DNA of 64,000 nt, from positions 1-64,000 of the forward strand of contig NZ_QYUR01000002.1 in assembly GCF_003596405.1 (NCBI RefSeq), read 5' to 3'. Source of the stretch: Pseudomonas cavernicola. Its GTDB lineage: Bacteria > Pseudomonadota > Gammaproteobacteria > Pseudomonadales > Pseudomonadaceae. The notes beneath the pieces were generated by a model. The model did no database searches, was not told where the DNA came from, and saw nothing but the letters and a program-made list of their open reading frames with translations. Positions 24,584 through 39,868 of this stretch are shown in pieces; position 1 is the stretch's first letter, and each line of letters starts with the position of its first letter. Made by a program: the position numbers and the translations under genes.

Positions 24584-25263
24584 ATCGGGTAGGAGGCGGG
24601 GTCACCCCCGCCGTCCTCCCACACCACCGTACGTACGGTTCCGTATACGGCGGTTCCTGCCTACTGACAAACTGCATCAGCGAGCTTGGTTTCGTTCGAT
24701 GTGTCGCCCGCGTAGTCTAAGCACCCGGACAGGCTCTCGGGACTTCCGGCCCCTACCTCCTGATTGTCCAGGCCTCCGTATAAGGGAGCTTGTGCCTGCG
24801 ACCCGCTCAGAGAGCACACCTGACTATCCGCTCATGGCAGGTTCAGCCCTTCATTGCTCCGGTTCCGAGCAACTACTACGGCCTCGGCTGACTTCTGCTC
24901 GCCCATCCCGTCACCTCACGATGCCGGTAGCACATGGCAGGCGAACAGATCTCCCAGGGTAATTCGCGCGACCTTCCTGCTTATGCCTGTCGGATATACG
25001 TCGTAGCGTTCCGTGCAAGTATCGGGCTTTGGCAATTATGGCTACCTCACCCTGCTACGCCGCCTAATCCGCTTCCTGTTCGTCAGGCCAGCAGTTTGCC
25101 TTCGGCTTCCTTCAGATTCGCAGTCGCCCGCGACACCCTTGCCTTCAGCTAACACTTCCCCTTGCCGGGTGTGTAGAGGACTTCCACCTCCAAGTCATCC
25201 AGCTCACCACCACAGTGAGCCAGACAGCGCCAGTCACGGCGCTACGCGCCATGCCTGGCGCAC
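24584..25263 (-). mobile_element. ORF-less group II intron, probably class C
   Basis: Read on the minus strand, the 5' end is GTGCGCC (25263-25257), fitting the group II GUGYG start, and it begins 3 bases after the U-tract of the mscS terminator. Near the 3' end is a 32-base hairpin (24654-24623): outer stem ACCGCCGTA/TACGGTGGT, inner stem TACG/CGTA and a 2-base bulge, as in domain V, with CGC at positions 3-5. A GC-rich domain VI-like hairpin follows and the element ends CTACCCGAT. No reverse transcriptase or maturase frame is present. Insertion behind a terminator is the known habit of class C introns. It may be a deletion form moved in trans or a fossil. Confidence 0.8.
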
Positions 25264-37747: not shown

Positions 37748-38203
37748 ATGGCTTTTCGTCCGTTACCGGCCCGAGCTCCCGCTGCGCTGCTGCGTGAGGC
37801 GAAGCCCCTGCAAGCGCTGTTCAACCAGGCCCAACGCCTCGCGCATCTACAGCGCTTGCTAGAAAGCCAGTTGCAACCCGCAGCCCGCGAGCACTGCCAT
37901 GTAGCATCGTGGCGCGAGGGCTGCCTGCTATTAATAGTCACCGATGGTCACTGGGCCACCCGCCTGCGCTATCAGCAGCGGCGCCTGCAACGCCAACTAC
38001 AGGCCTTCGCCGAGTTCACGAACTTAGCGAAAATCCTCTTTAAGGTGCAACCGCCCACCGCCGCAAGGCACGGTAGCGGTCACACTATTGAGTTATCGCA
38101 AAGCGCCGCCGACAGCATCCAGGCTACCGCCGACGGCATCAGCGACCCAAATTTGCGCGCAGCCCTGGAACGCCTGGCCAGCCACGCCAAAGACCGCAAG
38201 TAG
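37748..38203 (+). CDS. dciA: DciA family protein (DUF721)
   Basis: A 151-residue protein of the DUF721/DciA family, whose members help load the DnaB helicase in bacteria lacking DnaC. The N-terminal half holds the domain (ALFNQAQRLAHLQRLLESQL, then CLLLIVTDGHWATRLRYQQRRL); the C-terminal tail (residues about 110-151) is polar and less conserved. It is divergent from secA, the usual place in Pseudomonas. A further gene, an M23 peptidase, is usually found between it and lpxC in relatives, as I recall; here that place holds the second intron-like element. Confidence 0.85.
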   Translation: MAFRPLPARAPAALLREAKPLQALFNQAQRLAHLQRLLESQLQPAAREHCHVASWREGCLLLIVTDGHWATRLRYQQRRLQRQLQAFAEFTNLAKILFKVQPPTAARHGSGHTIELSQSAADSIQATADGISDPNLRAALERLASHAKDRK

Positions 38204-38241: not shown

Positions 38242-38865
38242 ATCGGCATAGGGGGCAGCCATTTGGCTGCTCCCCTGCCACACCACCCGGCATGCGGGTC
38301 CGCACCGGGCGGTTGAAGCGGTTGAGGTCGTCATGCCTGTACCCGAACATGACGCCTGGATTCATCTGACCCCGACCCGGCCGATCAGGTTCTTCGCTGT
38401 CACAAGCACCTCAGGCTTCACCTGCTGCACCTTTCATGACGAGCCCCGTATCCGGGCATCTGAAGAATCACCGTCTCGGATGGTCAGGCAAACTTACCCT
38501 TCCACTCCTTTGGCCCTTCACTCCAAACCGGCAGTTACTACGGCCTCTGCTGACTTCTCGCTCCGGCTTGCACCGTCGCCCTTTCAGGCACAAGGCGAGA
38601 TCTCCCCAGGTAAGAACGCAATCCTTCACCGCACAACCGCCGGATCTACGCTGCCGCCCCTTGACCACGAGAGCTTCGCGGTTTTTGGCCCGCTCGCCCT
38701 GGTCGGCTTCGCCTTCTATCCGGTTCTTGTTCATCGGCTCGCGGCTTCGCTCCACGCTTCCTCCCCACACTCGGTCACCCTCATGCAGTTGCGCTTCACT
38801 TCGTTCGCTGTGGTCAACTCACGGTGGGACTTTCACCCACAAGATTGCGCCCATGCTGGGCGCAC
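38242..38865 (-). mobile_element. Second ORF-less group II intron, probably class C
   Basis: On the minus strand it begins GTGCGCCCAGCATGGGCGC at 38865, one base after the U-tract of the lpxC terminator. It then has GTGGGTGAAAGTCCCAC, a common 5' segment of bacterial group II introns. Near the 3' end is a 32-base domain V-like hairpin (38313-38282): ACCGCCCGG/CCGGGTGGT outer stem, TGCG/CGCA inner stem, 2-base bulge and CGC at positions 3-5. A domain VI-like hairpin follows and the end is CTATGCCGAT. It shares AGAAGTCAGC and GAGGCCGTAGTA with intron 1 but otherwise differs a good deal. No reverse transcriptase frame is present. Confidence 0.82.
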
Positions 38866-38866
38866 C

Positions 38867-38897
38867 AAAAAAAGACCACCCTGGGGTGGCCTCTAAA
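38867..38897 (-). terminator. Terminator of lpxC, target of intron 2
   Basis: On the minus strand GGCCACCC pairs with GGGTGGTC around CA (38891-38874), with seven U residues following (38873-38867). It is 23 bases beyond the lpxC stop and ends the dcw-lpxC transcript. Confidence 0.85.

Positions 38898-38920: not shown

Positions 38921-39868
<948 letters not shown>

Follow-up and report, generated by a model that had tools for sequence, protein, structure and literature searches.

The ORF-less group II intron located behind lpxC in Pseudomonas cavernicola (hereafter I2) is, to judge from sequence comparisons, a mosaic made up of a Pseudomonas-type core and a Herminiimonas-type domain IV. It lies in a window of 64,000 nucleotides (the whole stretch of DNA analysed, from contig NZ_QYUR01000002.1) and is an intact ORF-less group IIC intron that probably acts, or formerly acted, as a non-autonomous retroelement moved by RTs encoded elsewhere; its splicing, RT binding and mobility are presumed here. 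The association of a protein-free domain IV with a core of local type suggests a parasite of other introns that would have been rebuilt by recombination.

I2 is 624 nt long and occupies positions 38865-38242 of the window on the minus strand (38242..38865). The upstream gene is lpxC (38921..39832, minus strand; Pfam LpxC, 374.5 bits), and a convergent gene of the DciA family is found at 37748..38203 on the plus strand (Pfam DciA, 51.3 bits). The 5' exon consists of the lpxC terminator hairpin and T-tract (38866..38896, minus strand), the hairpin being also present in the 18 related lpxC loci listed. Read on this strand, the terminator closes with TTTTTTTG, and the intron opens at the adjacent base, 38865, with GTGCGCCCAGCATGGGCGC; the junction reads ...GGTCTTTTTTTG followed by GTGCGCCC..., and the 3' end is CTATGCCGAT at 38242. 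The same two ends delimit relatives of I2 at many unrelated sites. The original prediction of a 624-base element directly behind the lpxC U-tract was exact in both its ends and its coordinates. The 624 nt contain no RT ORF, the feature by which class C would be recognised in the protein, and the assignment of I2 to this class rests on its RNA and on its RT-bearing kin.

In the Rfam search that the original prediction had called for, domains I-III of I2 matched group-II-D1D4-3 (117.5 bits, E = 1.8e-23) and group-II-D1D4-1 (46.1 bits), with RF02001 and RF01998 above the gathering score, while domain V/VI reached 34.8 bits with RF00029 (E = 4.7e-5), below the gathering score of 40. The minimum free energy of the whole intron is -274.4 kcal/mol, against a mean of -245.4 kcal/mol for 20 shuffled sequences (z = -4.05). 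A consensus fold derived from 16 ORF-less introns has six domains and 189 RNAalifold pairs, 71 of them changed on both sides in at least one sequence; a recount took in 188 of these pairs, of which I2 keeps 185, including 13/13 in domain V and 15/15 in domain VI. In this fold, on the minus strand, the 5' end and domain I correspond to 38605..38865, domain II to 38552..38604 and domain III to 38512..38545. Domain VI (38244..38280) and domain V, which is exactly 32 nt long (38282..38313), are supported by both the fold and Rfam, and domain V also by comparison of its pairs with those of intron 1, another ORF-less intron of the window: 4/13 pairs differ on both sides with the pairing kept. The compensatory changes previously claimed for this domain, including the stems CCGTA/TACGG and CCCGG/CCGGG, are thus correct. 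Domain IV extends from 38315 to 38508 (minus strand) and, according to trees, covariation and a dedicated model, is of an ORF-less type common to several genera; it includes a putative domain IVa (38358..38499, minus strand), assigned by position, to which an RT might dock.

EBS1 (CAAAAA, 38682..38687, minus strand), in the loop of the hairpin 38693-38678, pairs at 6/6 positions with IBS1 (TTTTTG, 38866..38871, minus strand) in the lpxC T-tract. A first guess by eye had placed EBS1 at nt 62-66 of the intron and was replaced by nt 179-184 after a scan and a loop test. The position narrowed by the scan was then tested on 60 introns, leaving out six that were unmatched by the loop expression, introns not starting with GTGC and matches that were too short. 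Pairing of each EBS1 with its own IBS1 averaged 4.35/6, against 3.03 (sd 0.128) in a reshuffling in which relatedness remains, and 0/2000 reshufflings were as high; the corresponding values are 4.16 and 2.94 for the ORF-less subset (n = 32) and 4.35 and 3.28 for the RT-bearing one (n = 20). The last 40 nt of the 5' flanks fold with a mean of -19.8 kcal/mol, against -9.0 for random 40-mers of the same loci, in a set of 80 flanks that includes a few misplaced starts (L067 and the second ones of L115 and L149). The six-domain fold and the EBS/IBS pairing to the U-tract exon, on which the original prediction had staked itself, are both found in I2 and, together with the Rfam matches and the position behind the lpxC terminator, support its identification of an ORF-less group II intron of class C type at this site. 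It mentioned neither the membership of domain IV in an ORF-less family common to several genera nor the mosaic structure.

The evolution of the core and of domain IV was reconstructed separately, with trees that hold part of the ORF-less introns found in the wide genome search described below. The core tree (428 columns, 52 rows; L094, L124 and L103 left out) requires six changes for the ORF-less introns, and a single ORF-less clade is rejected (27 vs 25 rows, p-AU = 7.5e-5). I2 branches beside 12 Pseudomonas RT introns (89/96), the Zoogloea ORF-less introns beside Zoogloea RT introns (95/82) and the Burkholderia ambifaria ORF-less intron beside the RT intron of its own genome (100/99). The tree of the 5' part of domain IV (153 columns, 51 rows; L094, L065 and L103 left out; L092, L165, L166 and L141 without anchor) places 26 ORF-less rows on one side of a branch (100/99), and I2 adjoins the Herminiimonas intron L136 (86/74). 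This tree rejects joining I2 with the Pseudomonas RT introns, as well as the Zoogloea and B. ambifaria pairs, the AU p-values near 1e-60 being extrapolations from 10000 resamples. The group of 26 rows was defined post hoc and excludes L089, L107 and L124; all 29 ORF-less rows as one group are rejected (p = 0.0023). When the tree was repeated with L165 and L166, both joined the RT-bearing rows and the split was kept (15 vs 26 rows, 100/98); long-branch warnings were issued for both domain IV trees. As reconstructed here, the ORF-less domain IV forms one clade apart from the RT-bearing introns, and the cores follow the local RT-bearing introns.

The core of I2 is 90-92% identical to the Pseudomonas RT-bearing introns L059 and L069, and its domain IV is 87% identical to that of L136 and 46-49% to those of L059 and L069. 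At positions separating Pseudomonas RT introns from Herminiimonas ORF-less introns (gaps counted as states), I2 follows the former at 11/12 sites in nt 21-245; in nt 337-530 it equals the latter at 66/71, the former at two and neither at three, and the 3' end has four sites, two each way. With gaps omitted, a maximum chi-square test locates the switch in I2 at nt 333-337 (informative sites 28:9 before and 2:44 after; 0/2000 permutations), and those of Zoogloea and B. ambifaria at 378-381 and 231-275 (0/2000 each); none was detected by this test in the ORF-less SB9 (436/2000). One could argue that core and domain IV share one history and that their trees differ through faster evolution or poor alignment of domain IV, since the domain IV trees bring long branches together and their ORF-less group was defined post hoc. 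Yet the switch is clean without gaps, two ORF-less controls have none (472 and 1769 of 2000) and an RT-only control a weak one (65/2000), and I2 and L136 are as alike in domain IV (87%) as in the core (88%), which makes a single history very improbable.

The common ORF-less domain IV is about 195 nt long and behaves as an RNA family. In a 16-row alignment, 94.0% of the cells are paired and 34/55 pairs are changed on both sides; its covariation is 0.491, against 0.249 when shuffled and at most 0.111 when slid, for a structure derived from the same alignment. This strong covariation points to selection on RNA in the family. The possibility that domain IV is a small gene was dropped, as stops break the frames of I2 there and the RNA covaries. 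A model of this domain gives 130-177 bits to the ORF-less members and matches 20 of 22 RT-bearing kin loci, mostly at positions 10-149 and with 15-63 bits (19.6 bits for the RT-bearing intron of L113); L065 and L141 are the two RT-bearing loci without a match to the model. An early comparison of the domain IV of I2 with that of an RT-bearing Marinobacter intron gave z = 12.3, which, with the 15-63-bit matches, indicates that the ORF-less and RT-bearing types are related and not separate inventions. The part matched in RT-bearing kin may be read as domain IVa, a putative RT docking site; PMC2882425 ascribes such a role to it in group IIA introns. Three ORF-less introns with RT-like domain IV, from Sinorhizobium (L089), Azospirillum (L107) and a Xanthobacteraceae MAG (L124), score 33-86 bits and are apparently separate ORF deletions, an illustration that such in-place losses do happen among the kin of I2. 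The model does not match the shortened ORF-less introns L092 and L094.

In scans of large genome sets, run with stricter filters, this model reached at least 150 bits in only 2/398 Pseudomonas genomes; among 398 genomes of the phylum, it did so in the genome of P. cavernicola alone, the other three matches having 40-46 bits. Another genome of the genus (G255) has six equal matches of 60.3 bits, the score of its RT-bearing intron L075. This distribution bears on the notion that I2 is retained to control the 3' end of lpxC rather than as a mobile intron. Selection on the RNA would agree with a service to the host, but the kin of I2 are located behind unrelated terminators, the model finds so few Pseudomonas genomes, and the site is empty in the 18 related lpxC loci listed from the same genus, which have the terminator and show no intron start within about 170 nt past the stop codon. 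A host-serving RNA is hardly credible on these grounds.

Matches to I2 at E = 1e-20 or better are found in 29/298 Pseudomonas genomes, its own included. The 29 loci taken from other genomes of the genus (L059-L087) comprise 16 RT-size introns (1481-1857 nt), which are 84.9-95.2% identical to nt 1-330 of I2, three short ones (565, 711 and 647 nt) and 10 without recognised 3' end. A pattern for a short domain IV, applied to 84,980 species genomes, matched 32 stretches, in Zoogloea, Neorhizobium huautlense, Rhizobium esperanzae, Herminiimonas, B. ambifaria, Paraburkholderia, Polaromonas, Azospirillum, Dechloromonas and other Rhodocyclales, a Chlorobaculum MAG (binning unchecked), Pseudomonas sp. 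2FG and others. Since the pattern requires a bounded domain IV length, the constancy of length among its matches is partly built in; I2, L088, L090, L093 and L079 were found without it. The ORF-less domain IV is common to introns of Rhizobium, Neorhizobium, Zoogloea, Herminiimonas, Burkholderia, Cupriavidus, Polaromonas, Rhodocyclaceae and Pseudomonas sp. 2FG. Several of these genomes carry ORF-less copies in different flanks: five distinct ones in Neorhizobium (99.4-99.8% identical), two in R. esperanzae (99.5%) and four in Zoogloea (94.6-99.1%), along with identical copies. Of 17 host genomes, 13 encode an RT domain and 10 a maturase domain of the GIIM type; no group II maturase (GIIM) domain was found in the other 7/17, which are broken assemblies and include N. 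huautlense. The latter has 26 matches to the intron, six of them full length, and the absence of GIIM from it is unproven because its assembly has contig ends inside introns.

A total of 384 plasmid records match I2, four of which cover at least 80% of it. The domain IV of I2 alone matched no plasmid at E = 1e-5, and that of L088 matched three records, all of them ORF-less ones already known. No match to I2 was found in phages by distant blastn, nor any match to the ORF-less pattern in viral_contigs. An E. coli IncY plasmid carries a 483-nt ORF-less relative with a different, shorter domain IV (L094, 3001-3483), and similar two-piece matches head the list of E. coli plasmids. In a Marinobacter RT-bearing intron (L091, 3001-5316), the RT gene is interrupted by an insertion. 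A Zoogloea MAG has introns arranged head to tail in the order ORF-less, ORF-less, RT-bearing (L113, 2553-5697; L115, a turned locus, 1604-2904 of the minus strand). The inner junctions of these tandem copies have no EBS1-IBS1 match (score 1.0), and retrohoming alone is therefore insufficient to explain them.

The genome of P. cavernicola is marked as that of a Pseudomonas by an Rfam match to the Pseudomon-groES RNA and by a genome of the same genus (G093) whose match agrees in contig number and coordinates with that in Pseudomonas sp. 2FG (G311). It has 17 matches to RF02001 and seven RT domains. L059 is the closest RT-bearing relative of the I2 core; compared with its RT, six of the RTs of P. 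cavernicola show 44.8-47.3% identity and the seventh 30%. At E up to 1, the domain IV model matched nothing in the RT introns L015, L016, L019 and L020 of this genome, nor in intron 1. Given this mismatch in the tested introns and the low identity of the RTs, a local RT partner for I2 is doubtful; moreover, as I2 has one copy in this genome, a recent movement of I2 itself is not demonstrated. The single copy, the lack of a close RT partner and the 90-92% identity of its core to L059 and L069 are what would be expected if a Pseudomonas RT-bearing group IIC intron had lost its ORF in place and left a fossil behind lpxC. Nevertheless, such a dead relic is unlikely, as its domain IV should not be 87% like that of L136 and only 46-49% like those of L059 and L069, and I2 retains 185/188 pairs and a 6/6 EBS1.

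If I2 is instead a non-autonomous retroelement, read-through of the lpxC terminator would yield its RNA, and the RT/maturase of another group IIC intron would bind domain IVa in trans and aid splicing. The resulting particle, directed by EBS1-IBS1 pairing, would reverse-splice into DNA just past terminator hairpins, and the RT would then copy the inserted intron. Its domain IV would derive from an RT-bearing intron after an ORF loss that left domain IVa; the ORF-less form would have passed from host to host, aided in trans, and later exchanged cores with resident RT-bearing introns through homologous recombination between cores or RT template switching. More tentatively, the ORF-less domain IV of about 195 nt could be a portable RT-capture module under selection as RNA. 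It would have reached different proteobacterial classes and combined time and again with the group IIC cores resident there, each time saddling an autonomous local intron with a small parasite fitted to that intron's RT; I2 would be one such chimera.

Several known systems resemble I2. MITE-like elements are small non-autonomous DNA elements moved by the protein of another element; I2 is likewise short, noncoding and presumably moved by a protein from elsewhere, but it is itself a ribozyme and targets its sites via RNA-DNA pairing. I2 shares with the group IIC (bacterial class C) introns behind intrinsic terminators its fold, ends, insertion at terminator hairpins and EBS1-IBS1 pairing, and differs from them by the lack of an RT ORF and its domain IV of ORF-less type. 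According to PMC2882425, the ORF-less TeI3 introns of Thermosynechococcus elongatus, the precedent for such elements inside a single genome, arose by one ORF deletion in domain IV followed by proliferation with good EBS/IBS pairs, and were mobilised in trans by RTs of other introns in assays. As in TeI3, the ORF-less domain IV is common to the copies of the I2 family. However, TeI3 belongs to another class and to one genome, in several copies, whereas the I2 family is of class C, lies at terminator sites in several genera and has exchanged cores, I2 being single copy and other members multicopy.

In the literature, bacterial ORF-less introns are called rare (PMC4424553), class C introns lie behind terminators and ORF-less ones increase in some genomes (PMC8919778), ORF-less phage introns are reported (PMC12350094), and ORF-less work is merely cited in PMC3552965 and PMC5894124. 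Titles and the first lines of abstracts gave no cross-genus ORF-less lineage with exchanged cores, and members may have been mentioned earlier (e.g. Simon et al. 2008, on ORF-less introns). If real, an ORF-less family that crosses genera, with domain IV conserved and cores exchanged, would mean that group II introns can survive and spread without being autonomous. Its naturally occurring variants would allow one to study which features of an intron RNA an RT has to recognise. They would also help to explain the emergence of RNA-only parasites from retroelements, which is often assumed in accounts of how spliceosomal introns began.

Intron 1 (24584..25263, minus strand; 680 nt) belongs to a different ORF-less subfamily, according to Rfam, the copy search and domain V. 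The original prediction listed I2 as a second ORF-less group II intron with the same domain V architecture; intron 1 is, however, no close sister of I2. Counting itself, intron 1 has nine ORF-less copies in this genome that are 99-100% identical, and four RT-bearing introns of the genome are 86-87% like it in their 5' part. Intron 1 and its copies represent another ORF-less family that behaves like that of I2. ORF-less relatives of intron 1 are also found on plasmids of Aeromonas, Pseudomonas and Citrobacter, with 82-89% identity over 99% of the query.
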